From the IMG/VR virus record IMGVR_UViG_3300032032_000627, positions 1 to 31,789 of that record: DNA of 31,789 nucleotides; one strand, written 5' to 3'. This stretch comes from a virus. The notes beneath the pieces are model-generated. The model worked only from the letters and a program-made list of their open reading frames with translations, made no database searches and was not told the origin of the DNA. Numbering within the stretch: position 1 is the stretch's first letter; each line of letters begins with the position of its first letter. Positions 9,017 through 28,445 of the stretch are shown one piece after another. The position numbers and the translations under genes are program-made.

Positions 9017-9025
9017 TATATACAT

Positions 9026-9055
9026 ATTATAACAAAAGTGTTCCCGCGGTATCAA
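9026..9055 (-). promoter_or_regulatory. Sigma-70-like promoter, 18-nt spacer class
   Basis: Minus strand: TTGATA, 18-nt spacer, TATAAT. The spacer contains GGGAACACTTTTGT, nearly identical to the spacers at 9240-9269 and 30913-30942. It overlaps the last ten codons of the 9027-9194 ORF. Confidence 0.82.
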
Positions 9056-9194
9056 GTTTTAATTCATGGGAGTCTTCAAACTGTAACCCATTTTCATCTC
9101 TCAGCTTTTTTAATGTCGTAAGGCCTCGACGCGAAGTTGTGTTCACTCTTTCCCAACCAGACCGCGGGTCCAGCATTTCCAGTTTCGTTTTCAT
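9027..9194 (-). CDS. Small hypothetical protein (55 aa)
   Basis: Begins MKTKLEMLDPRSGWERV and continues 'TTSRRGLTTLKKLRDENG'. It is charged and hydrophilic, and looks richer in G+C than its neighbours. Upstream TTG and GTG codons are in frame (to 9212), but I prefer the ATG at 9194, two bases after the stop of a possible 11-residue leader ORF. Its C-terminal codons are also the 9026-9055 promoter. No family recognised. Confidence 0.5.
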   Translation of the reverse strand: MKTKLEMLDPRSGWERVNTTSRRGLTTLKKLRDENGLQFEDSHELKLDTAGTLLL

Positions 9195-9232: not shown

Positions 9233-9239
9233 TATGTAT

Positions 9240-9269
9240 ATTATACAAAAAGTGTTCCTGTGGTATCAA
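9240..9269 (-). promoter_or_regulatory. Sigma-70-like promoter, 18-nt spacer class
   Basis: Minus strand: TTGATA, 18-nt spacer containing CAGGAACACTTTTTG, then TATAAT. The -35 box overlaps the TGA stop of the cyclase gene. It starts transcription of the 9232-8127 small genes after the curli operon. Confidence 0.82.
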
Positions 9270-11098
9270 GTTTTTGGGGAATATATTTCTATTGGTTCGT
9301 CTTTGCCTTTGACTTTAATAGTTCCGATACTGTGACATGGATAATCTTTAGATAGTTGCTCCATTGTAAAAGATGATATAATAGTCTTATAATCTACATA
9401 CTCATGTCTAGCTGCAGTTGCTTCTAACCTAGCGGCAAGGTTGACTGCATCTCCAATAACCGAATAGTCAAATCTGGTTTCACTACCCATGTTACCAACA
9501 ATACAAGTTCCGGTATTGATACCAGTGCCAACATTGATATCAGGAAGATTCCTGTCTTTGTAGATTCTTTTAAGTTCAAGTGTTTTTTTCTCTATTTCTA
9601 TTGCTGATTTAACTGCCATCTCTGCATGATTTTCACATGGTAATGGAGCATTCCAAAATGCCATTATACAGTCGCCCATATATTTATCTATAGTTCCACC
9701 ATTATTTAGTATTATCTTAGTCATAGCATCAAGAAATTCGTTAACTAAATCAACTAATCCTTCTGGATCATCATTCTCTTTATAATGTTCGCTTATGGGA
9801 GTAAACCCGCATATGTCCATAAAAAGAAATGTCATTTCTTTTCTATCACCACCTAGTCTCATTAATGAAGGATCTTCAACTAACATATCTACCATGTCTG
9901 GAGATAAGTAAGTTCCGAACTGTCCTTTAATTTGTTGTTTTAATTTGAACTGAACATAGAAGTTGTTAAAGCTAGAATGACTAAATATAAGTATCAACAA
10001 GATAAGGGGATATGAAAAATCAATCAAGACTCCAGAAGCGAAGACTTCAAACCCAGCGAAGACAACGCCGAATACACTCCCACCGAAAACTAAAGCAGAT
10101 AACCATATCGGTAAATGATATACCGATAGGAGAAGTATCAATCCCACAAAAAACATTAGACTTACCTCACCCAGCAGAGCCCATTGAGGCCTGGTAATCT
10201 GCTTACCGCCTGTAAGAGTATGAATTACTGAAGCTTGAATTTCGTGAGGATATTTAAGTCCGTCTGGTGTTGTAACTAGAGGTGATATTCCTTCTGCTGT
10301 TACTCCAATAATAACTGTCTTACCTTGTAAATCAGGTAACTGTTCTCCATATTCATATCTCTCAAAAGTATTAGTCCAATCTACATATATTGAACCTGTA
10401 TAATCAGTAACTACAGGTTCGTATGGTGGTATTCTCATATTCTCAATACCTGTTTCTTCTACTTTCATTGTGTAAGATTTTTTATCAGCCATTACACGAA
10501 CAACTTCCATTCCAAAACTTGGATATAATTTGTCTTCTACTGAGATGACTAAAGGTATTCTTCGAACTGAACCATCAACTTCTGGAGATGAGGAAAGCAT
10601 CCCTGTACCAGATGAGACTTCAGAATGGATATTATTTACCACCGAGTTGTATCTGTATGCAAAGGTTGTGGCATCACCATTACCTAGAGTAGCTGTTCCT
10701 ACATGAGGTGCGACACTTTCGACTCCTCGTACGCTTGTGGTACTAGCCAGTACGATACCATTATCTTTTACCCATGATGCGAATACTTCATCTCCACCAA
10801 ATCTATCTACATCAGCGAACATTGGTGTGAATGATATAATACCTGCATTAGTATTTCTTAAATCTGATATTAATTGTGCGAATTGAACTCTTGGAAATGG
10901 CCATTGACCAAATGTTTCTAGAGATTTTTCTCCGATATCAATAAGAACTATTGATTCGTTTTGAACTTGTTCTTCTGCTTTCTGATAATAATCAAAATTG
11001 ATTACTCTGAGTTGTTCTACTATATCTGGATCACTTACGCGTAATCCTATCAATCCAACAAGAACAATTATACATGACCAAATAGAAGTTAGTTTCAT
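9266..11098 (-). CDS. CHASE2-domain class III adenylate cyclase, membrane-bound
   Basis: 610 residues from the ATG at 11098 (MKLTSIWSC), which overlaps the preceding mini-gene stop as ATGA. An in-frame GTG at 11164 would add 22 residues. Order: an N-terminal membrane helix, a CHASE2 sensor domain (about 30-300, starting 'LRVINFDYYQKAEEQ'), three membrane helices (about 310-380), then a class III cyclase domain. Both metal Asp residues are present (about 428 in 'FMDICGFT' and 476 in 'DKYMGDCIMAFW'), as are the substrate Lys (about 472) and the transition-state Asn/Arg (about 553 and 557, 'VNLAARLE'). The purine-specificity position in 'FDYSVIGDAVN' is Ser where adenylate cyclases usually have Thr or Asp, so ATP is the likely but not certain substrate. 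CHASE2 lies in the periplasm. In bacteria, CHASE2 cyclases often neighbour FecR-domain genes, as here. Confidence 0.92.
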   Translation of the reverse strand: MKLTSIWSCIIVLVGLIGLRVSDPDIVEQLRVINFDYYQKAEEQVQNESIVLIDIGEKSLETFGQWPFPRVQFAQLISDLRNTNAGIISFTPMFADVDRFGGDEVFASWVKDNGIVLASTTSVRGVESVAPHVGTATLGNGDATTFAYRYNSVVNNIHSEVSSGTGMLSSSPEVDGSVRRIPLVISVEDKLYPSFGMEVVRVMADKKSYTMKVEETGIENMRIPPYEPVVTDYTGSIYVDWTNTFERYEYGEQLPDLQGKTVIIGVTAEGISPLVTTPDGLKYPHEIQASVIHTLTGGKQITRPQWALLGEVSLMFFVGLILLLSVYHLPIWLSALVFGGSVFGVVFAGFEVFASGVLIDFSYPLILLILIFSHSSFNNFYVQFKLKQQIKGQFGTYLSPDMVDMLVEDPSLMRLGGDRKEMTFLFMDICGFTPISEHYKENDDPEGLVDLVNEFLDAMTKIILNNGGTIDKYMGDCIMAFWNAPLPCENHAEMAVKSAIEIEKKTLELKRIYKDRNLPDINVGTGINTGTCIVGNMGSETRFDYSVIGDAVNLAARLEATAARHEYVDYKTIISSFTMEQLSKDYPCHSIGTIKVKGKDEPIEIYSPKT

Positions 11099-11181
11099 AG
11101 ATATAATAATACTAATAGCATAAGGCCACCACCAATCGTATAGACTAGTATTGCGATTAACCACATTGGAAGTTTATTCAT
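11095..11181 (-). CDS. Mini membrane protein (28 aa)
   Basis: MNKLPMWLIAILVYTIGG, then a Leu-rich end: almost all of it is one membrane helix. The ATG overlaps the preceding mini-gene stop and the TGA overlaps the cyclase ATG, both as ATGA. Such coupling argues that it is translated. It could be a membrane partner of the CHASE2 cyclase or simply a coupling device. Confidence 0.55.
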   Translation of the reverse strand: MNKLPMWLIAILVYTIGGGLMLLVLLYL

Positions 11182-11243
11182 AATCTTGTTATCTTAATAA
11201 GTAAATACTCTAGAAACCTAATTATTTTCGCTTTCATACTCAT
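11178..11243 (-). CDS. Mini-gene (21 aa), amphipathic
   Basis: MSMKAKIIRFLEYLLIKITR plus a final Leu: a short, basic, amphipathic helix. It is joined by ATGA overlaps to the mini-genes on both sides. No family; support is the overlap pattern only. Confidence 0.45.
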   Translation of the reverse strand: MSMKAKIIRFLEYLLIKITRL

Positions 11244-11353
11244 GTGATTTGCATTGAATATTTTATAGTTGAACCTATCATCCATCCACAAAAGAAGAAT
11301 GCGGCTGCCCAACCAGGATATTCTTTACAAAATTGCCAAATATTATATAGCAT
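11240..11353 (-). CDS. Small membrane protein (37 aa)
   Basis: Begins MLYNIWQFCKEYPGW and has one membrane segment ('AAAFFFCGWMIGSTI'). A Shine-Dalgarno GAGG lies just upstream of the ATG, 12 nt after the curlin-like gene stop. It ends with an ATGA overlap into the next mini-gene and so heads a coupled chain into the cyclase. Confidence 0.6.
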   Translation of the reverse strand: MLYNIWQFCKEYPGWAAAFFFCGWMIGSTIKYSMQIT

Positions 11354-11365
11354 AATGTCCTCATA

Positions 11366-12205
11366 TTATTGTTGTGTAACTCCTATAGTGCACCCACTTG
11401 ATGTATTACAAGTTTGTGTTAATGAATATGTTTGATCAGTGCTACCTTTCTGCAGTAAATCTAAATCTGTTCCATATGGACCATTTAAAATTATATTCGC
11501 GTTGTGTTCTCCTGTTCCTTGTTGTTCATAATCCACTGTATTATTACTATTATTAGCTCTGAAAGTAAATGTTTTTTCTCCGTCATGAACTTGTTTACCA
11601 TATACAGAATTATTATTTCCATAAAGATATATAGTAGCGGTGTGTCCATCACATGCTCCTGTTGAACAATTATTTTGATGTCCTACAACCACATTATTAC
11701 TACCATGTATATCTGCTGTAACTTTGTGGCCACCCTTATCATAAGTGTCTTTTGACCATGATGTATCAGTTCTACTGTCTATTGTATATCCTTGAGCCCA
11801 CCAAAATTTATTATTTGTTCCATAACTTATATGAAACTGAATATCATTTTTATTACAAACTGTTTCTGAACAGTTCTGCCATAACTTTAACTCTTGATCA
11901 TCATAATCAACATCTCCACCCCAAGCTGCACCAGAACCCCAACTTGGAGAATCATTAGTCCAACCTAACTCATTATTATTACCTTCTTGTTTTATATTAA
12001 TATTCATATCGTCGCCATCACCTATAGAGAAAAATATCTTGTTATTATACCCTATTTGATCAATAAGTAATACCAAGTTCTCACCACCACTGGCGACTTG
12101 ATCTATCTGAATACTATTAGTATTATCAGCCAGACTGTTTAATGATAATAACGACACTATCGCCATCATTAACAATGATTGAATTTGTAACACCTTCATT
12201 TTCAC
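11366..12205 (-). CDS. Secreted curlin-like repeat protein 1
   Basis: 279 residues. A signal peptide (about 1-26, MKMKVLQIQSLLMMAIVSLL, cut near 'SLA-DN') precedes a repeat region rich in Asn, Gln, Gly and Ser. Units resemble curlin repeats: 'IDQIGYNNKI', 'IKQEGNNNELGW', 'IYLYGNNNSVYGKQ', 'VDYEQQGTGEHN' and 'LDLLQKGSTDQ'. 'IDQIGY-NK' is shared with the second curlin-like protein. Six cysteines form three close pairs (CX4C, CX4C, CX5C), which E. coli CsgA lacks. The assignment as a fibre subunit rests on repeat style and on the neighbouring CsgG and CsgF. The first 80 nt are read in another frame as the end of the FecR-domain gene. Confidence 0.75.
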   Translation of the reverse strand: MKMKVLQIQSLLMMAIVSLLSLNSLADNTNSIQIDQVASGGENLVLLIDQIGYNNKIFFSIGDGDDMNINIKQEGNNNELGWTNDSPSWGSGAAWGGDVDYDDQELKLWQNCSETVCNKNDIQFHISYGTNNKFWWAQGYTIDSRTDTSWSKDTYDKGGHKVTADIHGSNNVVVGHQNNCSTGACDGHTATIYLYGNNNSVYGKQVHDGEKTFTFRANNSNNTVDYEQQGTGEHNANIILNGPYGTDLDLLQKGSTDQTYSLTQTCNTSSGCTIGVTQQ

Positions 12206-13286
12206 TCTCTATTTTTACACTCGACTCTATTGGTATTCTGATATCTATGATTCCATTAACTTCTCTATAAAACCATATTTGACCAGCACCTTCATCTATT
12301 ATTGTATTATATTGCGTTGTCTTATCAAAACCTAGTGATGTTCCAATTATGTTTCCAGAAGTATCACCTGACCCCGCTTTTGCTCTTTGTCTTTGTTTTA
12401 CTATATTTATTTCTTCAAACAGTTTAAGCACATCTTGAAGAAAGTCAACATCTAATAAATCCATATCCAATTCATTAAAATCTAAATCTTCTTCACCCTC
12501 GTCCCAATCTTCTTTTAAATAATCTATATCTAAATCATTAAAATCTAGAAGACTGTCGCTACTATCATCACGAGCTTCCGCTTCGTCATTTGTAGCGTCT
12601 TGAACAGCTGCAGGTGGTGAAACAATAAACATATTATCTATTGAATCTAAATTCATAATATTATCTAACACTACAGGTTGTATTGGTGGTGTCGATAAAC
12701 TTGACACCATTGTAGCCTGAAATGCTTCATTCAAAACAACTACGCCACCTTCATTCGTAACTGTTATTTCTCCAGACGGACTACAATCTCCGTCTATCGT
12801 ACATTCTGTTTCGGGTAAAAGAATCACTAAACTTCTACCGAGTTCATCAACACTAGTTGTAAAGCTCGTCCCTCTGACACCAATCGTTGCCGTTGGTGTT
12901 GTGATTACAATATTTTCCTTTGGAACTAGACCCAACTTACCTGTTGTAAATCTAGCTGTTCCAGATACAAACTTCATAGCCATTCTTGACTTTGAAGGAT
13001 CTGGATCAAAGTAATATTCATCTATTACTACCTCAGTATGCTCTGTAAGCTTCAGGTTTGTTTCATCAATAAACTTGATGTTCATTCTACCTTGAGCTGT
13101 TTCTATAGAATCTTTAAAGAATATATCTTCTCCGATTCCACCAGCTAAAGTTTCACCTGTATCTCTTACTATACCTGAACTACCATTGTGTTCAGTTATA
13201 TCACCTATATCATTTGCATAAACAAAAGTAGTAAATAGACAAACATTAATCGCCAGTATCTTTTTGATTAATTGTAATCGTTGCAT
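12126..13286 (-). CDS. Secreted FecR-domain protein with acidic repeat tail
   Basis: 386 residues from the ATG at 13286; an in-frame TTG would add four. A signal peptide (MQRLQLIKKILAINV..., cut near 'VYA-ND') leads into a FecR domain (about 25-180) with the hallmarks 'GEDIFFKDSIETAQGRMNI', 'GTARFTTGKLG' and 'ITTPTATIGVRGTSF'. A strongly acidic segment follows (about 235-290) containing two similar units, 'LDFNDLDIDYL' and 'LDFNELDMDLL', and then a beta-rich C-terminus. In bacteria this FecR type often stands beside a CHASE2 cyclase. There is no TonB receptor or sigma factor here, so a classical ferric-citrate signalling role is unlikely. It overlaps curlin-like genes at both ends in different frames. 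Confidence 0.85.
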   Translation of the reverse strand: MQRLQLIKKILAINVCLFTTFVYANDIGDITEHNGSSGIVRDTGETLAGGIGEDIFFKDSIETAQGRMNIKFIDETNLKLTEHTEVVIDEYYFDPDPSKSRMAMKFVSGTARFTTGKLGLVPKENIVITTPTATIGVRGTSFTTSVDELGRSLVILLPETECTIDGDCSPSGEITVTNEGGVVVLNEAFQATMVSSLSTPPIQPVVLDNIMNLDSIDNMFIVSPPAAVQDATNDEAEARDDSSDSLLDFNDLDIDYLKEDWDEGEEDLDFNELDMDLLDVDFLQDVLKLFEEINIVKQRQRAKAGSGDTSGNIIGTSLGFDKTTQYNTIIDEGAGQIWFYREVNGIIDIRIPIESSVKIESENEGVTNSIIVNDGDSVVIIIKQSG

Positions 13287-13977
13287 TTTCACTATCAAAA
13301 TCCGCTATTAATTCACTATGACATGAACTTATACCTGTAGGACAAGTTCCAGAACTTTGAACAATATCAATATTACCACTAGATTGAATTAATTCTAAAT
13401 CAATTTTATGATATGCTCCATCTGTCATATTTGTATTAACATCATTAGAACTACCTGTAACATCTACATCATATCTTGCATCGTCAACTTCGATAACAGT
13501 TGTAAATACATTAGAACTACCTGAAACATCTAAATCAAAATCTAGTCTTTCAGAAGATTGAGCTGCTCCCCAATCTAAGTTCATAGTATTTGAACTACCT
13601 GTCCAAGTTGCTAACAAGTTTGATGCATCGGCTGAACCTGATGCTCCAATAGTTTGATCCCATATATTACTATTACCTGTCAAATTAACACTATAAGTAG
13701 ATTGGTCGAGAATCATTGGTCCATATATTTGGTTAAGATTACCGATCATATCCATGTTAATTGTATTAGTTGTTCCTGTAATTACCATTGCTGTTCCACA
13801 AACACCACTAGATATAGTTCCACAGATTTTGTTACCATAACCAATCTGATCAATCGTTAATGTAAGAGTATCACCTGTTTGATCAAGTTTAATTTCGTTA
13901 TCCGTTGTGGCGGCAGCGAACAATAATGTAGGTGTGAATAATGTAAAGAATAATACCTTATTCAATATTTTCTTCAT
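13246..13977 (-). CDS. Secreted curlin-like repeat protein 2
   Basis: 243 residues. A clear signal peptide (MKKILNKVLFFTLFTPTLLF, cut near 'AAA-TT') is followed by short beta-type repeats, most centred on G(S/N)xN: 'ITGTTNTINMDMIGNLNQI', 'VNLTGNSNIWDQT', 'WTGSSNTMNLDW', 'VSGSSNVFTT', 'VTGSSNDVNT'. 'LTIDQIGYGNKI' matches curlin-like protein 1. Two close Cys pairs occur (CX7C near the start, CX6C near the end). It follows CsgG with a 20-nt overlap. It is a plausible amyloid or adhesive fibre subunit exported through CsgG; which of the two is major and which is nucleator cannot be told from sequence. Confidence 0.75.
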   Translation of the reverse strand: MKKILNKVLFFTLFTPTLLFAAATTDNEIKLDQTGDTLTLTIDQIGYGNKICGTISSGVCGTAMVITGTTNTINMDMIGNLNQIYGPMILDQSTYSVNLTGNSNIWDQTIGASGSADASNLLATWTGSSNTMNLDWGAAQSSERLDFDLDVSGSSNVFTTVIEVDDARYDVDVTGSSNDVNTNMTDGAYHKIDLELIQSSGNIDIVQSSGTCPTGISSCHSELIADFDSENATITINQKDTGD

Positions 13978-14896
13978 TTTTATTTTCCTCGTTATTATTT
14001 TCCTCTTCCTCAGTAACTACAACGATTTCAACTTCTTCAAAAACCTCAGAAACTTCTTCTTTAATTTTAGTTTCTGTTACAGGCCATTGAATGGTCCAAA
14101 ATCCTCGTTCATCACCTTGGAGTATTAATTCGTAAACAGCAGCTTCGATCGCTGATCGAACACTTCTGGTTACACTCTCATTCTCGGTCATTCCGTCTTC
14201 GACTTCTACTAATTGAGTATCCATCTCAACGAATTTAAAAACATCAAATCCCTGTGCGACCGATAAAATAGTCTTTGATGTTTGTACATTTAATATAATT
14301 TCACCGGTAAGAACACTAACGGCTCTCAAGTGAACTACTACGATATCTCTCCTATAGGCTTGTTGTGCACCTATGCCAAGATATCTAGCACCTCTTCCTC
14401 CAGTTTCAATATTGGTATCATACCCAATAATTCCACCTTCTAAAATAATTCCTGCGAATAATAATGGAGCTAATTTCTTTTCTTCTCCATATGATTCTCT
14501 AGTTGATCTTACTATTGAACGCTCTCTAGTTAAGTGATCAACTCCAACTCTTTCTACTACTCTAAACCATGTTCCGTTCCCAGCAGTCTTCAATGCATCT
14601 ATTAACATTGTTTCACTACCTTGTGTTACTGCCGTGCTAAACATGGCCGCGTCACCTTTTTGTTTTCTTTGACCAGTCTTGTCTAAAAACTTGTATATTG
14701 CTATAACCGGTTTTTCTACAGCTGGTGGTAACCCCAATAATTTTTCGTGTGTTGGTAATTCTATAACTTCTGGTTCTTCTGAACATTCAACAAATCCAAC
14801 ACAGTTTTTATCGTGCACACCTTTAACACTTACTACGGATGCACAACCCGATATTAGCAGTAGGCTAATAATACCTAATCCTATTTTAAGATTCAC
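13958..14896 (-). CDS. csgG: CsgG, curli secretion channel lipoprotein
   Basis: 312 residues, GTG start directly after the csgF TAG. A lipoprotein signal peptide has lipobox LISGC (Cys18). The body aligns with CsgG: 'VIAIYKFLDKTGQRK', 'FSTAVTQGSETMLIDALK', 'WFRVVERVG', 'GIILEGGIIGYDTNIETGG', 'GARYLGIGAQQAYRRD', 'TSKTILS' and 'GFDVFKFVEMD'. CsgG forms a nonameric outer-membrane pore that passes unfolded curli subunits. In the constriction loop the Phe equivalent to E. coli Phe56 is kept ('MFSTAV'), but Tyr51 and Asn55 are not. A Cys pair (CX5C) near the N-terminus and an acidic Glu/Asn tail ('EEENNNEENKNEENIE') are additions to the usual family length. Confidence 0.94.
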   Translation of the reverse strand: MNLKIGLGIISLLLISGCASVVSVKGVHDKNCVGFVECSEEPEVIELPTHEKLLGLPPAVEKPVIAIYKFLDKTGQRKQKGDAAMFSTAVTQGSETMLIDALKTAGNGTWFRVVERVGVDHLTRERSIVRSTRESYGEEKKLAPLLFAGIILEGGIIGYDTNIETGGRGARYLGIGAQQAYRRDIVVVHLRAVSVLTGEIILNVQTSKTILSVAQGFDVFKFVEMDTQLVEVEDGMTENESVTRSVRSAIEAAVYELILQGDERGFWTIQWPVTETKIKEEVSEVFEEVEIVVVTEEEENNNEENKNEENIE

Positions 14897-15463
14897 CTAG
14901 CCCCCGAATGTTCCATTCCCGATCGGAATGGTTATTACTGTCTCTGTTCCATCCTCAGCTACGATAGTTAATACTATTACTTCTTCACCAGTTATACACC
15001 CTGTCATTGTGCTTGTGTCACAAGCGGTCTTTGTATAACTAATAGTATTACCTTCTAATGCAAAACTACCAAATGTAGCTGCTACACAACTAGGGTCTAC
15101 TGTAAGATCACATTGTTTAAATAATGACTCAACTAACTGTTTAGAAAGTTGAGAATAAATTCTACTCTCTAAATTCCTCATGAACTTAGCCATAGTAGTA
15201 TTTTCAGCCTCTCTTTGAGCTGCTAATAAGGCTGATTCTATATCTTTCTGTATAGCATCTCGCCTTGATTTTTCCTGGTTTTCAATAGTAAGATAGTGTG
15301 CCGATGTGCCTATACCACTAAAACTAGGATTTTTAAATTTGTGTGCCATTTCATCTCCACTAACAGCGAGGCTGATTAATAAAGACATTAAACATATAAA
15401 TGTAAAAAATACCCAACCAATATGAAATTTAGCTGATATTAATTTATTCCAGAATTTCTTCAT
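14897..15463 (-). CDS. csgF: CsgF-like curli assembly factor
   Basis: 188 residues. After a long hydrophobic N-terminal export signal (about 17-36) comes 'HKFKNPSFSGIGTSAHYLTI', matching the start of mature CsgF (FRNPNFGG...), the part that inserts into the CsgG pore. The C-terminal domain ('GNTISYTKT', 'EEVIVLTIVAEDGTETVITI') also fits CsgF. Two CX7C pairs are extra. In E. coli, CsgF caps the channel and anchors the nucleator at the surface. The ATGA overlap with the upstream holin-like gene and direct abutment with csgG show a tight unit. CsgE is not visible. Confidence 0.85.
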   Translation of the reverse strand: MKKFWNKLISAKFHIGWVFFTFICLMSLLISLAVSGDEMAHKFKNPSFSGIGTSAHYLTIENQEKSRRDAIQKDIESALLAAQREAENTTMAKFMRNLESRIYSQLSKQLVESLFKQCDLTVDPSCVAATFGSFALEGNTISYTKTACDTSTMTGCITGEEVIVLTIVAEDGTETVITIPIGNGTFGG

Positions 15464-15759
15464 TTCTTTTTCTTCTCCGCCAGAGCTTCTTTTTCCTCTG
15501 CATCTTCTAATAACATTTGTCTTTCACGATATTCTAATACTACTTTAACCTTTTGTTGAAGGCGTATCATATCGTTATCTAACATTCTATTAGCGTCTAT
15601 ACACTTAATAAGAGCATAATGCATAGTCTCTAATTCTGGCTCTAGTTTATCTGTGATATATTTCCATACAAAATATATGAAATATCCCATTCCCAAAGCC
15701 AATATAATTGGAAATCCAAAATCACTTATAGCTTGTGCTAACGCGTCCATTCCGTCCAT
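15460..15759 (-). CDS. Small membrane protein with coiled coil, holin-like (paralogue B)
   Basis: 99 residues: one N-terminal membrane helix (about 12-33, 'GFPIILALGMGYFIYFVWKY'), then a long charged helix ('NRMLDNDMIRLQQKVKVVLE') ending in a Lys run. This matches the topology of BhlA/UviB-type holin-like proteins. It aligns with the neighbouring 15759-16073 product across membrane and helix regions, so the two arose by duplication. I recall similar 'LDNDMIRLQ' proteins in marine T4-like phages without known function. Holin activity is inference. Confidence 0.7.
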   Translation of the reverse strand: MDGMDALAQAISDFGFPIILALGMGYFIYFVWKYITDKLEPELETMHYALIKCIDANRMLDNDMIRLQQKVKVVLEYRERQMLLEDAEEKEALAEKKKK

Positions 15760-16073
15760 CAGTCTCGCCTCACATCTAATTTAACATTCTGTGGGATACC
15801 CTTTTCGTTTGTTCTGTAGTTTTCAGCTCTTGCTACTCTATCGATTGGTGGTGTTAACTCTAATGCACTACTTACTAATAAGTCAATCTTAATCAACTCA
15901 TTACTCCCAACTCTTGCTCTATCTTCTAACATTTTACAGAAACCTGTTAATGTTTTGATATCATCTATCACTCCGTCTAAAATCTGTTTTAGAACTAGAA
16001 AGATAAAGAACCCCATTACTAGAGCTCCTGCAATTGGTGCACCGACCTCTGCGATCAGTCCTAATATATCCAT
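15759..16073 (-). CDS. Small membrane protein, holin-like (paralogue A)
   Basis: 104 residues. An N-terminal membrane helix (about 11-30, 'GAPIAGALVMGFFIFLVLKQ') is followed by a helical, charged tail ('NELIKIDLLVSSALEL'). It is the first gene after the TATAAATA late promoter at 16099-16106, with GGAG upstream of the ATG. Its stop overlaps the next start as TGATG. It is paralogous to its neighbour. It could be a holin for the lysozyme at 6318-6791, or an inner-membrane part of the curli machinery. Confidence 0.7.
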   Translation of the reverse strand: MDILGLIAEVGAPIAGALVMGFFIFLVLKQILDGVIDDIKTLTGFCKMLEDRARVGSNELIKIDLLVSSALELTPPIDRVARAENYRTNEKGIPQNVKLDVRRD

Positions 16074-16098
16074 CTTATAAATTCTCCATTAATACTAG

Positions 16099-16106
16099 TA
16101 TTTATA
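16099..16106 (-). promoter_or_regulatory. T4-type late promoter TATAAATA for the curli operon
   Basis: Exact late octamer on the minus strand, 25 nt before the ATG of the first gene. It lies immediately after the terminator of the Fe-S carrier gene, so the operon 16073-9266 should be transcribed late and independently. Confidence 0.82.
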
Positions 16107-16137
16107 AAAAAAGAGAGACACAAAAGTGCCTCTCTTT
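16106..16137 (-). terminator. Rho-independent terminator after the IscA-like gene
   Basis: Minus strand: AAAGAGAGGCAC, loop TTTT, GTGTCTCTCTTT, then more T, giving a 12-bp stem with one G-U pair. The U-tract runs into the TATAAATA late promoter. Confidence 0.88.
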
Positions 16138-16152
16138 AAGTTTTTAATAAAT

Positions 16153-16476
16153 TTATATTGAGAATGATTCACCACAACCACAATAGGCTGAGGCGTTAGG
16201 GTTTATAAAAGTGAAACCTTCATTGATACCCTGATATTGATAGTCTAGTTGCATACCATGTAGATACTCTACTGATTCTCGGTTTGTCCAGATACTAAAA
16301 GCTCCATAATTTACTTCTAGATCCAATTCTTCTGGTTCGCCTTTTAAAAAATCGAACTCATAAGAATAACCATTACAACCACTACCCTTAACTCCAATTC
16401 GAATGTTTCTGTTGTTTTCTTTTGAAGTTTTCTCTTGAAGCTTGACTATAGCTTCCTCAGTTAATTCTACGATCAT
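16153..16476 (-). CDS. A-type iron-sulfur carrier, IscA/ErpA/HesB family
   Basis: 107 residues, the normal family length. The three cluster-binding cysteines are present: one in 'GSGCNGYSYEFDF' and two in the C-terminal 'YCGCGESF'. 'LTEEAIVKLQ' at the N-terminus and 'GFTFINPNAS' near the end are typical. It would carry Fe-S clusters to apo-proteins; such genes are common in marine T4-like phages. One local client could be the radical-SAM QueE at 24000-24869. Confidence 0.94.
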   Translation of the reverse strand: MIVELTEEAIVKLQEKTSKENNRNIRIGVKGSGCNGYSYEFDFLKGEPEELDLEVNYGAFSIWTNRESVEYLHGMQLDYQYQGINEGFTFINPNASAYCGCGESFSI

Positions 16477-19527: not shown

Positions 19528-19990
19528 TTAATGTCTCCCATGGAAAAACAATCCAGGAGCCATCATGAGATTGACTGTAAACAATATCTTTTGCGTTCTG
19601 TTTACCGAACAAACAATACCCAAATACTCTAGGCATTGGGGAGGGTTTAGTTCTTGATCTTTTAACAAAGTCTATAACTTTATTCATTGTGTATCCTGTG
19701 TCGTAAATATCATCTACGATTAAATATGTTTGTCCTTCTGCGTATTCATCAATCTTCATTGTTTCTGTTGCATTATGTATCCAATAAGGCTTTTTGTCTT
19801 CTGCGTCTCTAGTTTGAAATCCTACAATAGACATTGGAACTTCTCTCACATTTGATAAATGTGTTGCCATGCATAAACTTCCACGATATATTCCTATTAC
19901 ATGATCAAACTTTATCCAATCAGTAGCTCTCATATCTTTATTGTAGTCTTTCCAACTATAATATACTTTATTGTTTTTTATCTGTTTCAT
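19514..19990 (-). CDS. Phosphoribosyltransferase family protein
   Basis: 158 residues with the PRPP-binding signature 'YLIVDDIYDTGYTMNKV' (two acidic residues before a Thr/Gly loop) and an upstream 'HVIGIYRGSLCMATHLSN'. It resembles xanthine/hypoxanthine phosphoribosyltransferases. It is coupled to the transglycosylase gene (ATGA). It may salvage purines, or handle a base in the 7-deazaguanine pathway; the latter is inference from position. Confidence 0.85.
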   Translation of the reverse strand: MKQIKNNKVYYSWKDYNKDMRATDWIKFDHVIGIYRGSLCMATHLSNVREVPMSIVGFQTRDAEDKKPYWIHNATETMKIDEYAEGQTYLIVDDIYDTGYTMNKVIDFVKRSRTKPSPMPRVFGYCLFGKQNAKDIVYSQSHDGSWIVFPWETLSEPI

Positions 19991-21273
19991 ACATCTAATC
20001 TAGTTGGCCAATACTCTGGAACTTTCTGTGGTGCCCTTTGTCTTGGTAACCAATATCTCGTAAACTCGTCATAAGTTTTTATATGAGATAACCCATTTGT
20101 ATCAGTTGGTGTTTGAATCCTTCTATCTAATTCATCCATAAAATGTTGAATAGTATTCATAACCCAATGCCATACTAATAAATGATATCCCGGCATACAA
20201 CCATCTTTAATAAATTTTCTTTCTTTATCTTTATTATCAACTGACCATTTTGTTGAATCATTTATTAATCTCATAGGATCTGTAATACCAAATTCTTTGA
20301 ATGCTTCTTCATGATCGTTCATAATATCTTCAATAATAGGTAATAATTGATTCTGAACAATATCAGTTAAACTTCTTTTACTAGAAATAGGTATATCCAT
20401 TGTTCTTTGAATATAATTCTTATCCCTATATCTAGAGAAAAACCAAGATGAAGCATGTGAACTAGAATCATACGACACAGTATCAACAAAATCAAAGTAA
20501 TCAGGTGATACTAAAAATGGCATCAACGCCTGTGGATTACCTACACCCAACAAGTGAATATTTTTCTTTAAAGAATCTGGAACTTGATATTCTTTTATTG
20601 AATAAATCATTTCCATTCTATGAACAAAATGATTACCTATTGCCTGAGAACCCGGAGCGACTCCACAACACATTGTTTCTATTTCTTCATCATCTAATCC
20701 ATTACAAACTGTTTCAATATATCTACTCCAAGAATCAACATCAGCACCTTGTGAGATTAACATGATCTTTGCATCTGAATCATTCTTTTTAAATATTTCA
20801 ATTTGTCTCTTAACATTATCAGATGTTTCTACCGCACATCTATCTATATCACTTCGATTAAATCTTCTACCAACAGAAGAAGTTTTCATAGAATTACCAC
20901 CTGTTAGTGTTAAATCATATTCAACAGGTAATAGATCAAAAATCATGGCGACATCACAATACTTAGATTGATGTTCATAAACTTTATCTTTTACTTCTGG
21001 TGTGATTCCTTTTGGAGTTCTGGCTAATTGTAATCCACCTGAATCAGCAAATATTCTATTCCAACTATGTTTCATGGTATCATTCATTGTAATACCATGT
21101 CTTTTTTCTGTATGAGCATTAAACAAGATTGACATATTCTGATTATCATATTTTGTATCCATACTAATAATCTTTTCATTCATTCTATGAATATATGGTT
21201 TGGCTGTCTCGGCGTTATAATAGAGATCATCAATCCCCATAGTTAACCCGGATACTACATACTCAAACTTCAT
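19987..21273 (-). CDS. dpdA: DpdA-like DNA 7-deazaguanine transglycosylase (TGT family)
   Basis: 428 residues. The TGT-fold active site is visible: 'IFADSGGLQLAR' (general acid/base Asp of the DSGG motif), 'MIFDLLPVEYDL', 'LISQGADVDSW', a Gly-rich 'CCGVAPGSQAIGNHF', and 'FDFVDTVSYDSSSHASSWF' containing the candidate nucleophile Asp. The CXCXXC zinc site of bacterial tRNA-TGTs is not seen, as in phage DpdA enzymes. It would exchange guanine in DNA for a 7-deazaguanine base. The context (folE, queD, queE and queC just upstream in the same operon) strongly favours DNA modification over tRNA modification. Confidence 0.87.
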   Translation of the reverse strand: MKFEYVVSGLTMGIDDLYYNAETAKPYIHRMNEKIISMDTKYDNQNMSILFNAHTEKRHGITMNDTMKHSWNRIFADSGGLQLARTPKGITPEVKDKVYEHQSKYCDVAMIFDLLPVEYDLTLTGGNSMKTSSVGRRFNRSDIDRCAVETSDNVKRQIEIFKKNDSDAKIMLISQGADVDSWSRYIETVCNGLDDEEIETMCCGVAPGSQAIGNHFVHRMEMIYSIKEYQVPDSLKKNIHLLGVGNPQALMPFLVSPDYFDFVDTVSYDSSSHASSWFFSRYRDKNYIQRTMDIPISSKRSLTDIVQNQLLPIIEDIMNDHEEAFKEFGITDPMRLINDSTKWSVDNKDKERKFIKDGCMPGYHLLVWHWVMNTIQHFMDELDRRIQTPTDTNGLSHIKTYDEFTRYWLPRQRAPQKVPEYWPTRLDV

Positions 21274-21926
21274 GATGTTGCCAAACTCATAAATTCTGAT
21301 CTTACAGAATGTTTGTGAAAAAAGTATCCACCCAACTTAGATGTAGTCATACCAGAAGCTTGATCTCCAATCCCTCTAGACTTTACACAAAGATGTTCTC
21401 CTTGAACAAGAACAGCAATATTATCAGTCCCTAAAATATATTCTAATGCATGATAAATTTGTTCTGTCATTCTTTCTTGAACTTGTGGTCTTCTTGCAAA
21501 GAAGTTTACAATTCTATTTAATTTTGATAACCCTATTACATGACCATTAGGAATATATGCTACTTGAGCCATACCATTAAAATTGACTAAGTGATGTTCA
21601 CATAATGAATGAAATGTAATATCTTTTTGTATAATCATTTGATCATATCCCATTTTGTTTTCAAATACTGATACTTTTGGAAAGTTAGTATATGATAATC
21701 CTGAACACAATTCAGAAACATACATTTTAGCAACTCTATCTGCAGTTCCTGATATTGAATCATCTTCTCTATCTAAACCTAAAACATCAACAACAATTTC
21801 CATGTTGTCTCTGATTAGTTCTATCTTCTCCTCGTCTGTTAACGCGGTTTCTGTAATTGGTGTCTCTACACCATTTTGGACTAAATGTTCTGCAACTTTT
21901 AATCCCAATTTTCTATCTGTCTTCAT
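21270..21926 (-). CDS. folE: GTP cyclohydrolase I
   Basis: 218 residues, normal FolE length. 'FHSLCEHHLVNFNGMAQVAY' holds the zinc Cys and His and the catalytic His; 'VIGLSKLNRIVNFFARRPQ' and 'VLVQGEHLCVKSRGI' (second zinc Cys) are standard FolE motifs. It makes dihydroneopterin triphosphate from GTP, the first step of preQ0 synthesis. The ribosome site GGAG is good, and the stop overlaps the dpdA start (ATGA). Confidence 0.96.
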   Translation of the reverse strand: MKTDRKLGLKVAEHLVQNGVETPITETALTDEEKIELIRDNMEIVVDVLGLDREDDSISGTADRVAKMYVSELCSGLSYTNFPKVSVFENKMGYDQMIIQKDITFHSLCEHHLVNFNGMAQVAYIPNGHVIGLSKLNRIVNFFARRPQVQERMTEQIYHALEYILGTDNIAVLVQGEHLCVKSRGIGDQASGMTTSKLGGYFFHKHSVRSEFMSLATS

Positions 21927-21944
21927 AATTTCTCCATAATATAA

Positions 21945-22589
21945 TTACCCAAAGTAATATGGGTTTTCTTTAGTCTCAAACCTAGACATTGGTTCAAGAT
22001 TATTTTTCACTAAATCCATTAGATACATAACACCTGCTTCTGTTTCTAATGAATCATTAAATTTAGTTGACGATATATTCATATCATCATCATAAAACAA
22101 AGGACTAATTTCATTTCTAAATAGATACAAATTATCCTTTGAGTATCTAGCACAACTAAATGTGCCGTCAACATTATCTAACTTACCACCTAGAACTAAA
22201 TGTCTATGTAGTAATTCAGTATCCCAATCTACATTACCAAGTTCTTCTTTCCATTCTTGAACTTGATAATCTTTTATAATTCCGTTGTGCCATAGTAAAT
22301 CGCCATCAATTTTTGACGGGTGTGTTTCTATACTATCTGTCGTTGGCGCTTGAACATGACCAAGATAATATGTTGTTTTGTATTCATCTTCTGCCATTGT
22401 TATTGAATCTTTAAACTCACCTTCACCTGTATTAGTTGTTATATGAATAACCTTTTCAGCGTCATGATAATGTTGAAACTTACCCGTCTGAAATACAGTT
22501 GTCGAATGAGCAAAGCTTCCTCTATATTGATTAAGTTCTGCAAGTTCTAAAAACTTGTCTTTATCTTTACTACCAAATATTGCACACAT
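21945..22589 (-). CDS. Class II (Ntn) glutamine amidotransferase
   Basis: 214 residues from the ATG at 22589, which overlaps the queC stop as TAATG and has GGAG 6 nt upstream. An upstream in-frame TTG is rejected because it would bury the nucleophile. Starting here gives MCAIFG, so Met removal exposes the catalytic Cys. 'YLGHVQAPTT', 'LLWHNGIIKDY' and 'DTELLHRHL' match the Ntn glutaminase pocket. The downstream half lacks a recognised synthase domain. In some phages a glutaminase fused to QueC converts preQ0 to the amidine G+; other phages with separate amidotransferases have been linked to an amide form. It probably supplies ammonia to QueC or to the 23311-24003 protein. Confidence 0.85.
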   Translation of the reverse strand: MCAIFGSKDKDKFLELAELNQYRGSFAHSTTVFQTGKFQHYHDAEKVIHITTNTGEGEFKDSITMAEDEYKTTYYLGHVQAPTTDSIETHPSKIDGDLLWHNGIIKDYQVQEWKEELGNVDWDTELLHRHLVLGGKLDNVDGTFSCARYSKDNLYLFRNEISPLFYDDDMNISSTKFNDSLETEAGVMYLMDLVKNNLEPMSRFETKENPYYFG

Positions 22590-23314
22590 TATAATCTCCA
22601 ATCTATTTCTTTATCGTATGGAATAGGGTCTTTACGACCTACTTTCATAAAATTCATTATTCTTTCTGCACATGACGGACACTCACCACATGACAATACT
22701 CCAATAGGATCATAACAAGTTAATGTATGTTTAAGTAAATCGAATTGTCCTAACTCTATGGCCACTTCTATTTCTTCCGCCTTTGACATTTTACTAAAAG
22801 GAGCAACTATCTCTATATTCTTTTGTCTATTCTGACTAGCAACGGCATTCATTGAATCTACAAATTTTTGAGTTGTATCCCAATAACCATATTCGTCATG
22901 AACCTGTAATCCTGTATAAATCTTTTTACAATCATGAACCTCTGCGTGTGATAAGGCCAAGGATAGTAAAATCATATTTCTAAATGGAACATAAGTTACA
23001 GGTTGTGGATCTCCCAACACTTCTTTAATGTTTGGCATGTTAACATCTGTTCCTGATATATTAGCCGACATAGGTGCTGCTATCTCTCCTAATACTGTTA
23101 AATCAAGAATTGTATGTTTAATACCCAACTCGCTTGTTAGTTCTTTTGCTTTCTCAATTTCTAATTTCTGTTTCTGATTATAATCAAAAGTGATAGCGTG
23201 AACTCTATCGTTTCCGTATTGATTAACGCACATCATTGTAGTAACTGATGAATCTAATCCACCAGATAAAACCACTAATACATTTTCATCTATATTTTTT
23301 GTTTCTATTTTCAT
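22589..23314 (-). CDS. queC: QueC, 7-cyano-7-deazaguanine (preQ0) synthase
   Basis: 241 residues. The ATP pyrophosphatase loop 'VVLSGGLDSSVTTMMCV' lies near the N-terminus, 'FDYNQKQKLEIEKAKEL' and 'YVPFRNMILLSLALSHAE' follow, and the zinc site 'CYDPIGVLSCGECPSCAER' near the C-terminus is complete. It converts 7-carboxy-7-deazaguanine to preQ0 with ATP and ammonia via an amide intermediate. It is coupled on both sides (ATGA and TAATG). Confidence 0.96.
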   Translation of the reverse strand: MKIETKNIDENVLVVLSGGLDSSVTTMMCVNQYGNDRVHAITFDYNQKQKLEIEKAKELTSELGIKHTILDLTVLGEIAAPMSANISGTDVNMPNIKEVLGDPQPVTYVPFRNMILLSLALSHAEVHDCKKIYTGLQVHDEYGYWDTTQKFVDSMNAVASQNRQKNIEIVAPFSKMSKAEEIEVAIELGQFDLLKHTLTCYDPIGVLSCGECPSCAERIMNFMKVGRKDPIPYDKEIDWRL

Positions 23315-24003
23315 AAGTCAAATATTGTTTTTGGTAATTTGGATTTATCATATCCAAATCGTTCTACTTCATTTATAATATCATTCAAAATAAATTTATG
23401 TAAATCTGGAAACATATCTCCAGCACCATTCGGACCTCTAAATCCATCTTGTTGAGCCTTTTTATATAACTCTGAACTTGGTGTTAAAACATAATCTTGA
23501 ATGTAACCTTCTTCCTTTAGCTCTCTTAATGACTGTTCTGCAGGTTCATAGTTCCGCTGTCGTGGATTAAAATTGGCTATGACATACTTATATGCGTTTG
23601 TTTTAAAGAATTTATGCATTCTTTTATACATTACTTTCTTATATAAGATATCATCTTCATGTGGACCAGCTTCATAATTTAAAAACGGCCAACTCTCCCA
23701 AAAAGATTCTGGTATAAACCCACCATTAGATACAACAATCATATCAACTTTATTTTTAAAATGATAAATATATTTCTCCCACTTCTTACTATGGTAATAT
23801 GGTCTAGTGGCTGTGCATAAAGATAAGAATACTGTATGTTGTATAGGTTGATGTTGTATTGTTACTCTATCAAACGCGTCATGTAATAGTGGGAGATTTA
23901 AAACTTTATTCTCACAATCCATTTGGTCAGATGATATCCATTCTTCTTTCTTAAAAAGTTTTTCATCACCTTTTGGTAAAAATTTATCTCTATCTATCTT
24001 CAT
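23311..24003 (-). CDS. Unknown protein in the 7-deazaguanine cluster (possible DUF5591/ArcS-like)
   Basis: 230 residues, coupled by ATGA overlaps to queE and queC. The core 'TVFLSLCTATRPYYHSKKWE' followed by 'VDMIVVSNGGFIPESFWESW' resembles the 'PCS..KPY' and 'SPLG.VP.E' parts of the DUF5591 domain of archaeosine synthase, which acts on the preQ0 nitrile. 'YVIANFNPRQRNYEPAEQ' and 'FRGPNGAGDMFPDLHKF' are further conserved-looking stretches. This likeness is from memory and weak; the gene could instead be a novel base-tailoring enzyme. Position argues for a role in this pathway. Confidence 0.6.
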   Translation of the reverse strand: MKIDRDKFLPKGDEKLFKKEEWISSDQMDCENKVLNLPLLHDAFDRVTIQHQPIQHTVFLSLCTATRPYYHSKKWEKYIYHFKNKVDMIVVSNGGFIPESFWESWPFLNYEAGPHEDDILYKKVMYKRMHKFFKTNAYKYVIANFNPRQRNYEPAEQSLRELKEEGYIQDYVLTPSSELYKKAQQDGFRGPNGAGDMFPDLHKFILNDIINEVERFGYDKSKLPKTIFDL

Positions 24004-24869
24004 GTTCCTATTTGATTACCAAAGATATAACAATGAACTCTAGCGGCTACATTATATCCTCGTTCCATTGTTTGTATTGTTATTTCTTTAGCCAATTCAT
24101 CTTGTGATTCTTCTGTAGCTCCAACAGGCATAATCCAAATTGGATACATAACTCCAGAATGTCTGAATGTGGCTATTGCGTTTTCTATTTCGTCCCAAGA
24201 TGCATCACTTCCATTACATACAAATTTTAATTGTCCAACACCATCTGATAAATCATAATATTCTTTTACTATATCTGGACACACTGCGTCTTTCTCACCA
24301 CTTGTATTAAACATCTTCGGACTAACTGAAAAGAAATATTCTACTTGATCTTTAAATTGCATTAAATAGTTTTGTAATGATGGCTCTAGAGGTCTAGTTC
24401 CATTTGTTTCCCAAGTAATGTATTTAAATCTTTTACCAAATGTTTCAATACAAAGTCCTTCCATTTCTGTTAAAATCTTTATAGTTTTCTTTTGTGCCGC
24501 TTTCATCAAAGGTTCACCACCTGTAAAAGCTATATGAGTATTTTGATCATACATTTGATCAAATAATTTCTTCGCGACTTCCTTTTCTGTTTCTTTCTTT
24601 TGAAGTTTAGCATATTTCTTACTCCAAGAATAAGATGAATCACACCCATACTTCCATACAGGTAAATCTTCAACAGTCTTAACATCAATTAAATCATGTT
24701 CTAAATAAGGAAGTTTATATGTTGAAGGATCAGTTGGATCATCTTGGCCAAAACCTTGACATTCAAGATTACAACCAAAGAATCTCAACCAAGTTGTTGG
24801 AACACCTGTATAGTGTCCTTCACCTTGAATACTTTTAAAAATTTCCGAATACAGCACTGTTTGCTCCAT
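24000..24869 (-). CDS. queE: QueE-like radical SAM 7-carboxy-7-deazaguanine synthase
   Basis: 289 residues from the ATG at 24869 (MEQTVLYSEIFKSIQGEG); a GTG four codons upstream is also in frame. 'SIQGEGHYTGVPTTWLRFFG' and 'AFTGGEPLM' are QueE/radical-SAM hallmarks. The cluster motif is odd: 'GCNLEC' is followed after 38 residues by 'YGCDSSYSW', whereas standard QueE has the third Cys two residues after the second. The flanking residues match, so this looks like an insertion within the cluster loop. The start overlaps queD by about 35 nt. The Fe-S carrier at 16153 may serve it. Confidence 0.92.
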   Translation of the reverse strand: MEQTVLYSEIFKSIQGEGHYTGVPTTWLRFFGCNLECQGFGQDDPTDPSTYKLPYLEHDLIDVKTVEDLPVWKYGCDSSYSWSKKYAKLQKKETEKEVAKKLFDQMYDQNTHIAFTGGEPLMKAAQKKTIKILTEMEGLCIETFGKRFKYITWETNGTRPLEPSLQNYLMQFKDQVEYFFSVSPKMFNTSGEKDAVCPDIVKEYYDLSDGVGQLKFVCNGSDASWDEIENAIATFRHSGVMYPIWIMPVGATEESQDELAKEITIQTMERGYNVAARVHCYIFGNQIGT

Positions 24870-25272
24870 GTTCGAATACACGAACGGATTTTATTTTAAC
24901 TCTATCGTCAGCTAGTTCTCTCTCACAAAATTTATATACATACTTAGCGAACGCTTCACACCCTACATTATCCATTAATCTTAAATCAATTAGATTAAGA
25001 GTTTTCAAAGTTATAAAGTGATCTAACATTGGATCATCAGCTGCTATTACAGTTGTATGATCAAACATTTCTTTTAACATTTTTTTCAAAACACCTAAGT
25101 CTCCGAAATCAATTACCCAATTTCTATCGTCTAACTTATCTGCTTCGAATGTTATTTCAAATCCTAAAGCATAACCATGAATTAGATTACAATGAGAGTC
25201 TGCTCTCCATTGTCTAAATGCACATGAATGACCTGTCTCATTCCCGTATGTTTTTATTACTTGATACTTCAA
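24835..25272 (-). CDS. queD: QueD-like 6-carboxy-tetrahydropterin synthase
   Basis: 145 residues, TTG start overlapping the gp44 stop. 'FRQWRADSHCNLIHGYALGF' is the family segment with the catalytic Cys and zinc-binding His; 'NWVIDFGDLGVLKKMLKEMF' and 'DHTTVIAADDP' (catalytic Asp-His) follow, and 'SVRVFEHGANSA' supplies the substrate Glu. The usual HGH is HGY here, so one canonical zinc ligand is changed; I recall this FRQ/HGY form in a minority branch of the family. It converts dihydroneopterin triphosphate to 6-carboxy-tetrahydropterin. Confidence 0.9.
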   Translation of the reverse strand: MKYQVIKTYGNETGHSCAFRQWRADSHCNLIHGYALGFEITFEADKLDDRNWVIDFGDLGVLKKMLKEMFDHTTVIAADDPMLDHFITLKTLNLIDLRLMDNVGCEAFAKYVYKFCERELADDRVKIKSVRVFEHGANSAVFGNF

Positions 25273-28288: not shown

Positions 28289-28364
28289 TGGAGCTATCGG
28301 TCAGATTTGAACTGACGGCCTGCTGATTACAAATCAGCTGCTCTACCAACTGAGCTACGATAGC
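28289..28364 (-). tRNA. tRNA-Thr (anticodon UGU), CCA encoded
   Basis: Minus strand: acceptor arms GCTATCG/CGATAGC pair perfectly. The anticodon stem GCTGA/TCAGC closes loop TTTGTAA with anticodon TGT. The T arm is GTCAG-TTCAAAT-CTGAC. Discriminator T is followed by CCA. It lies 5 nt downstream of tRNA-Ala. Confidence 0.95.
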
Positions 28365-28369
28365 GAATC

Positions 28370-28445
28370 TGGTGGAGCGAGAGGGAATCGAACCCACGAC
28401 CTTCTGGATGCAAACCAGACGCTCTCCCTACTGAGCTACCGCCCC
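28370..28445 (-). tRNA. tRNA-Ala (anticodon UGC), CCA encoded
   Basis: Minus strand: acceptor GGGGCGG pairs with TCGCTCC using two G-U pairs. Anticodon stem TCTGG/CCAGA closes loop TTTGCAT with anticodon TGC. The T stem GTGGG/CCCTC has one T-T mismatch. Discriminator A and CCA follow. Its first 10 bases overlap the 3' end of the zinc-ribbon gene. Confidence 0.93.

Follow-up and report, generated by a model that had tools for sequence, protein, structure and literature searches.

The stretch of DNA analyzed here, referred to as the window, is the complete IMG/VR record IMGVR_UViG_3300032032_000627 (31,789 bases). At positions 9266-16106 of its minus strand lies an operon that appears to encode a compact curli-type (type VIII) secretion system together with its own subunits. 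Eight genes run from 16073 down to 9266 in the order MP1-MP2-CsgF-CsgG-CUR1-FecR-CUR2-CHASE2-cyclase, and the first seven overlap or almost touch (Table 1). All genes named in an initial annotation of this DNA were found in place, minus-strand and tightly packed or overlapping, while its count of ten products has to be revised to eight genes and two putative mini-open reading frames (mini-ORFs), both of which contain hydrophobic segments and sit between CUR2 and the cyclase gene. CsgG, CsgF and the FecR, CHASE2 and cyclase domains all exceed the Pfam cut-offs, in agreement with that annotation. The window also holds T4-type replication genes (gp43-like DNA polymerase, UvsX, gp41-like helicase, clamp and clamp loader), and by gene content the contig is assigned to the T4-like marine myophages (pelagimyophage group). 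Judged by CsgG, the closest isolate is Pelagibacter phage HTVC008M, at 49% identity.

Table 1. Features of the operon and its 5' border, in the direction of transcription (window coordinates; E, expectation value; aa, amino acids; nt, nucleotides).
Feature	Position	Strand	Remarks
Intrinsic terminator of the upstream Fe-S carrier gene	16110..16137	-	minimum free energy -17.7 kcal/mol, z -6.9
T4-type late promoter core TATAAATA (candidate)	16099..16106	-	25 nt upstream of MP1; followed by a GGAG ribosome-binding site
MP1	15759..16073	-	104 aa; phrog_18771 E 3e-21
MP2	15460..15759	-	99 aa; phrog_18771 E 2e-23
CsgF	14897..15463	-	PF10614 E 8.6e-9
CsgG	13958..14896	-	PF03783 E 1.8e-50
CUR1 (curlin-repeat subunit 1)	13246..13977	-	family profiles, Asn period, model
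FecR-domain protein	12126..13286	-	PF04773 E 6.3e-12; phrog_37870; ATG start 13286
CUR2 (curlin-repeat subunit 2)	11366..12205	-	family profiles, Asn period, model
Mini-ORF (putative)	11240..11353	-	37 aa; single hydrophobic segment
Mini-ORF (putative)	11095..11181	-	28 aa; hydrophobic; overlaps cyclase start
CHASE2-domain class III nucleotidyl cyclase	9266..11098	-	610 aa; PF05226 E 3.2e-34, PF00211 E 1.4e-19

Secretion pore and curlin-repeat subunits

The assignment to type VIII secretion relies on three components: a CsgG pore with a lipobox cysteine, a CsgF with a pore-binding N-terminal segment, and secreted curlin-repeat subunits. CsgG matches the structures of E. coli CsgG with E 3e-44, and its lipobox cysteine C18 is invariant in 19 alignment rows; the protein is thus read as an outer-membrane lipoprotein pore. 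In the CsgF alignment, a signal or anchor sequence is followed by a conserved F-x-NPSFSG segment, and a single-sequence search of PDB chains with CsgF gave no match.

The curlin character of the two subunits emerges at the level of their families. CUR1 (243 aa) consists of a signal peptide and a predicted beta-solenoid and is conserved between close phages. CUR2 (279 aa), whose start overlaps fecR by 80 nt, has a pair of C-terminal cysteines that is invariant in the alignment. Taken alone, both window sequences score below the cut-off of the Pfam Curlin_rpt family. Their relatives do match it, in 8 of 25 cases for CUR1 (best E 9e-6, with no other family found) and in 12 of 26 for CUR2 (best E 5e-8), where it is the main family. 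Searched against the PDB, the CUR2 family profile retrieves solved curlins first (8c50, E 2e-5; 8enq, CsgA, E 0.003), and the CUR1 profile places 8enq first (E 0.022). A 22-residue asparagine period is present in both families; for CUR2 it is seen at family level only, the periodicity of the single sequence not being significant (1188/2000 shuffles). AlphaFold2 models of both subunits are all-beta with regularly repeated strands, at a predicted local distance difference test (pLDDT) score of 79 for CUR1 and 78 for CUR2. Profiles and gene order support the initial proposal of a phage-encoded type VIII system with its own curlin-style subunits.

Candidate late promoter, small membrane proteins and gene conservation

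The 5' border of the operon is marked by the terminator of the upstream gene, whose T-tract abuts the candidate late promoter. The upstream gene, an A-type iron-sulfur carrier (PF01521, window 16153-16476), immediately precedes the operon in this phage group and is located elsewhere in others. In the window as a whole, TATAAATA occurs 5 times against 6.2 expected, so over-representation was rejected as an argument and only positional conservation was retained. Of about 51 distinct regions upstream of MP1, 23 have the motif within 75 nt of the gene, against a background of 1.3%; for the later operon genes, MP2 through cyclase, the figure is 2 of 497. The shorter TAAATA is present within 60 nt upstream of MP1 in 40 of 50 regions (background 5.5%), ending 4-6 nt before the start codon in 21 of 50. 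Because the position of TATAAATA is conserved across phages, the late promoter proposed initially stands as a candidate on comparative evidence. Sixteen distinct TATAAATA sites are separated from the MP1 start codon by exactly 5 nt (in L015, L044, L061 and other loci), while the window and its kin have the 25-nt spacing and a Shine-Dalgarno sequence instead. With the 5-nt spacing, the usual distance between a T4 late promoter core and its transcript start predicts leaderless late MP1 mRNAs in that group of phages. In pelagimyophages, the prediction of late promoters was reported by Zaragoza-Solas et al. to have failed (PMC7029224).

MP1, with one N-terminal hydrophobic segment and a hydrophilic tail, and the paralogue-like MP2 are small membrane proteins that open the operon. 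No Pfam family matched the MP1 homologues. csgF follows MP1 in 75 of 75 loci, and three further loci without csgF each end within 337 bases. The MP2 family shows weak YvrJ similarity in 5 of 18 members (best E 0.05), and the best PHROG holin match, also to MP2, is weak (E 0.034). The two proteins had at first been described as holin-like. This identity was rejected, since no holin family, in Pfam or PHROG, scores above chance and the proteins occur only adjoining csgF. By position, MP1 and MP2 are by implication the "histidine kinases" of PMC9599517; that label was rejected as well, given their length of about 100 aa, the lack of a histidine-kinase profile match and the lack of an invariant histidine in the alignments. 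MP1 is best described, from its distribution, as a phage-only accessory protein of the module.

These proteins bear on the proposal that the system is a lysis device, in which lysis is timed by CsgG-CsgF, acting as a pore in the outer membrane or as a gated secretin/pinholin, and MP1 and MP2 are the holins. This proposal of Buchholz et al. in 2022 (PMC9004378) was extended in the initial annotation. The late promoter, the YvrJ and holin likenesses of MP2, a lysozyme gene 2.5 kb downstream of the operon and the lack of visible fibres in Melnitz all speak for it. A CsgG pore sits in the outer membrane, however, and on its own leaves the inner membrane closed. Two curlin subunits under purifying selection, one of them swapped rapidly, would be superfluous for a lysis pore, and MP1 and MP2, unlike generic holins, adjoin only csgF. 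The lysis device is regarded as quite unlikely.

Conservation was assessed in 80 IMG/VR loci collected via CsgG (the best 80 of a larger set, so that rarer arrangements may exist) and 78 collected via MP1. As far as the contigs reach, gene order is the same in essentially all of these approximately 160 phage loci, and it is shared by HTVC008M and Melnitz; this is the synteny that the initial annotation had suggested surveying. Mean identity over 31 full operons is 70% for MP1, 67% for CsgG, 63% for CsgF, 58% for MP2, 58% for FecR, 54% for the cyclase, 50% for CUR1 and 46% for CUR2. In comparisons with close relatives, omega falls at 0.03-0.22 in every operon gene but CUR2, where it is 0.33-0.53. 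A decayed or passenger module, kept by linkage and functionless in the phage, would fit the lack of a known phenotype, but it is contradicted by these selection data for seven of the eight genes, by order and frames intact in about 160 loci and by the intact cyclase active site described below, and can be considered extremely improbable.

CUR2 departs from this pattern. In 148 of 219 phage pairs with similar CsgG, it is the gene with the lowest conservation; these pairs share ancestry and so are not independent. Between the window and its relative L003, CUR1 is 97% identical, FecR 91% and the cyclase 91%, and CUR2 only 49%. DNA identity falls sharply past the signal-peptide region of CUR2 and recovers in the cyclase gene, with borders at about 12000-12150 and 11100-11400. 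Repeat proteins tolerate change, which tempers the reading of divergence as replacement; the sharpness of the borders nevertheless argues for replacement of the mature part. From these comparisons CUR2 appears to be a hypervariable cassette swapped by recombination, at approximately 50% identity while the flanking genes remain at approximately 90%, and its product would be exposed and specific. In three loci (L041, L026 and L033), 1.6-3 kb of extra DNA lies between CUR2/FecR and the cyclase, near the CUR2 position, and the slot may take further cassettes.

Such variation could reflect an arms race if the exported solenoid coat served superinfection exclusion by masking receptors against competing phages. 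This function, suggested in PMC9599517, agrees with the hypervariable subunit and with the expected surface location. On the other side, late expression comes late for exclusion. No exclusion factor is known to use a type VIII secretion system. Superinfection exclusion is judged rather unlikely.

The FecR-cyclase pair and its cellular counterpart

The FecR protein comprises a signal peptide, a FecR domain (60-153) and an acidic tail. The cyclase most likely starts at ATG 11098 and not at GTG 11164, its relatives starting at the former. Numbered in the 632-aa frame, D450, D498, K494 and R579 are invariant and N575 nearly so; as judged from these residues, the active site is intact and of the class III adenylate cyclase type. 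"Sensor pair", the name first given to the two proteins, is reasonable, but its output is left unexplained: in most sampled genomes of the SAR11 order no cyclic-nucleotide receptor domain was found. Immediately downstream of the operon, at 9019-9060 and 9233-9274, a direct repeat of 42 nt (86%) carries TTGATA-N18-TATAAT on the minus strand, an arrangement like that of paired early promoters.

A cellular operon of the same kind was found in Hyphomonas sp. TMED17 (L091, 9456-15479, on a 705-kb contig), where CsgF, CsgG, a curlin-like protein, FecR and a CHASE2 cyclase follow in the same order. It is flanked by genes for a flavin adenine dinucleotide (FAD) oxidase and a fumarylacetoacetate (FAA) hydrolase on one side and for a 2-oxoglutarate oxygenase and a TonB receptor on the other. 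In the phylogenetic tree, its cyclase is, with strong support, the sister of all phage cyclases, and its CsgG groups with the phages on a long, weakly placed branch. On present sequences this operon is the nearest cellular form found; transfer may have run in either direction. At the thresholds used, no other operon of this type was present among the other ordinary bacterial csgG loci, 385 sampled genomes of the class and 398 of the order. Four other sampled alphaproteobacterial loci carry a FecR-domain gene divergently beside a CHASE2 cyclase, with no csg gene in their short flanks. These findings suggest that the sensor pair came with the curli operon rather than as a phage invention.

The host side was sampled in 147 genomes from the order of a Candidatus Pelagibacter metagenome-assembled genome (MAG), taken to represent the SAR11 order. 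Among them, a class III cyclase and a phage-type CsgG occur solely on that MAG's own phage contig. From their gene content, several loci (L084-L090, L092-L094, L096, L097, L101 and L102) look like phage contigs that were placed in MAGs, and they were not counted as cellular; a match to a 1499-base unannotated record of Salmonella phage S.Kent 1-2-1 was set aside as probable host DNA. Such contigs with this operon (L084-L090, L092-L094, L096, L101 and L102) sit in MAGs of Bacteroidota, Planctomycetes, cyanobacteria and other groups, where they can mislead surveys of bacterial curli.

Elsewhere in the window, FolE, QueC, QueD-like (PTPS) and radical-SAM genes are clustered at 21270-25272, neighboured by genes of unknown family at 19987-21273 and 21945-22586; the cluster probably serves 7-deazaguanine synthesis for DNA modification. 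The tRNA genes are tRNA-Gly(TCC) at 42-115, tRNA-Thr(TGT) at 28289-28364 and tRNA-Ala(TGC) at 28370-28445.

Proposed function and comparison with known systems

The best explanation, and a reasonably probable one, is that two curlin-type beta-solenoid subunits are exported late in infection to the infected cell's surface. The late promoter would drive a stripped-down type VIII secretion system and both subunits. Signal peptides would take the subunits across the inner membrane and the CsgG pore would let them out, with CsgF capping the pore and guiding assembly. Beta-solenoid fibres or a coat would then form late in infection, CUR1 providing the constant part and CUR2 the swapped, variable part, most likely outward-facing, that decides what the coat binds or masks. 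Together, the secreted FecR protein and the cyclase would sense the state of the envelope; this pair would have arrived with the module from a source resembling an alphaproteobacterium. MP1 and MP2 would have been added by the phage and would sit at the inner membrane, linked to the pore. Of the possible benefits, adhesion to new hosts or to neighbouring cells is rated slightly above superinfection exclusion.

Several observations weigh against this explanation. The window's DNA polymerase is about 49% identical to cyanomyophages and equally to Methylophilales phage Melnitz, which fits a T4-like marine myophage, and any assignment of a host to the contig is tentative. Foldseek searches of both curlin models against the PDB returned generic beta-solenoids only, none with E below 0.001; the likeness of the fold to curlins therefore lies in sequence period and profile and not in a close structural match. 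The cyclic-nucleotide-binding domain PF00027 is absent from 137 of the 147 SAR11-order genomes and from the complete HTVC008M and Melnitz; because cyclases and such domains are mostly absent, the CRP/CsgD route of enterobacteria is unlikely in a SAR11-type host. The shared ancestry of the compared phage pairs counts here too, as does the finding that Melnitz cultures showed no clumping in cytograms or transmission electron microscopy (PMC9004378). Finally, the CsgE gate (PF10627) is absent from the window, as noticed in the initial annotation, and from the complete HTVC008M and Melnitz; in E. coli this periplasmic gate is not essential (PMC7029224). A CsgG that stays open without CsgE could instead admit nutrients or macromolecules, as suggested in PMC7029224 and PMC9599517. 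Uptake of this kind is very unlikely, since it leaves CsgF, the two curlin subunits, CUR2 swapping and late timing unexplained.

Under late export, phages of the most abundant ocean bacteria spend about 7 kb on exporting amyloid-type proteins from hosts without such a system. The late promoter, the hypervariable subunit, the pore-tied MP1 and MP2 and a cyclase product without an obvious receptor in the likely host lineage narrow the purpose of the module, and CUR2 is singled out as the part to examine for binding or masking. A bolder, tentative and rather doubtful extension is that the module is a surface-display system and not a copy of bacterial curli: a CUR1 scaffold would carry a host- or competitor-specific CUR2, as tail fibres do on virions, and the FecR/cyclase pair would bring cyclic AMP (cAMP) signalling to a lineage largely without class III cyclases or known receptors.

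The module itself is known. It was covered by Zaragoza-Solas et al. in 2020 (PMC7029224) and Buchholz et al. in 2022 (PMC9004378), and Wittmers et al. in 2022 (PMC9599517) described it in full as HK(1-2)-CsgF-CsgG-CsgA/B-FecR-CsgA/B-AC, where HK denotes histidine kinase and AC adenylate cyclase, in podo- and myo-pelagiphages; CsgF and CsgG had been found in earlier papers. Between them, these papers also cover the alphaproteobacterial affinity and most proposed functions, so that the initial view of the whole assembly as less described does not hold; the words "promoter" and "hypervariable" do not occur in the text of Wittmers et al. Curli labels already stand in the HTVC008M record's own annotation, and most labels in the HTVC008M and Melnitz records.

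In its genes, their order and the lack of CsgE, the window matches the module of HTVC023P-type podophages and of myophages described by Wittmers et al. Two points of that paper look wrong. One is the histidine-kinase label, if it refers to MP1 and MP2, whose homologues have no such profile match. The other is that bacterial type VIII operons are said to lack FecR and AC, as the Hyphomonas sp. TMED17 operon has both. HTVC008M (gp011-gp019, L082) and Melnitz (L083) have the identical order, with CsgF, CsgG, curlins and cyclase annotated, and FecR in Melnitz; identity to the window is 49% and 46%, respectively, for CsgG and 43% and 33% for the cyclase. E. coli csgDEFG/csgBAC shares the CsgG pore, CsgF and curlin-repeat subunits. 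Unlike it, the phage operon lacks CsgE, CsgD and CsgC, has subunits of 243 and 279 aa with degenerate repeats, and includes FecR and a CHASE2 cyclase. The Hyphomonas operon shares the CsgF-CsgG-curlin-FecR-CHASE2 cyclase order and differs in its single 504-aa Asn-rich curlin-like protein, with no MP1/MP2 and no second curlin. The window operon is thus a confirmed further case of a known phage module, to which the present analysis adds the hypervariable CUR2 cassette, the conserved candidate late promoter, a corrected label for MP1/MP2, the Hyphomonas operon and the absence of an obvious cAMP receptor.

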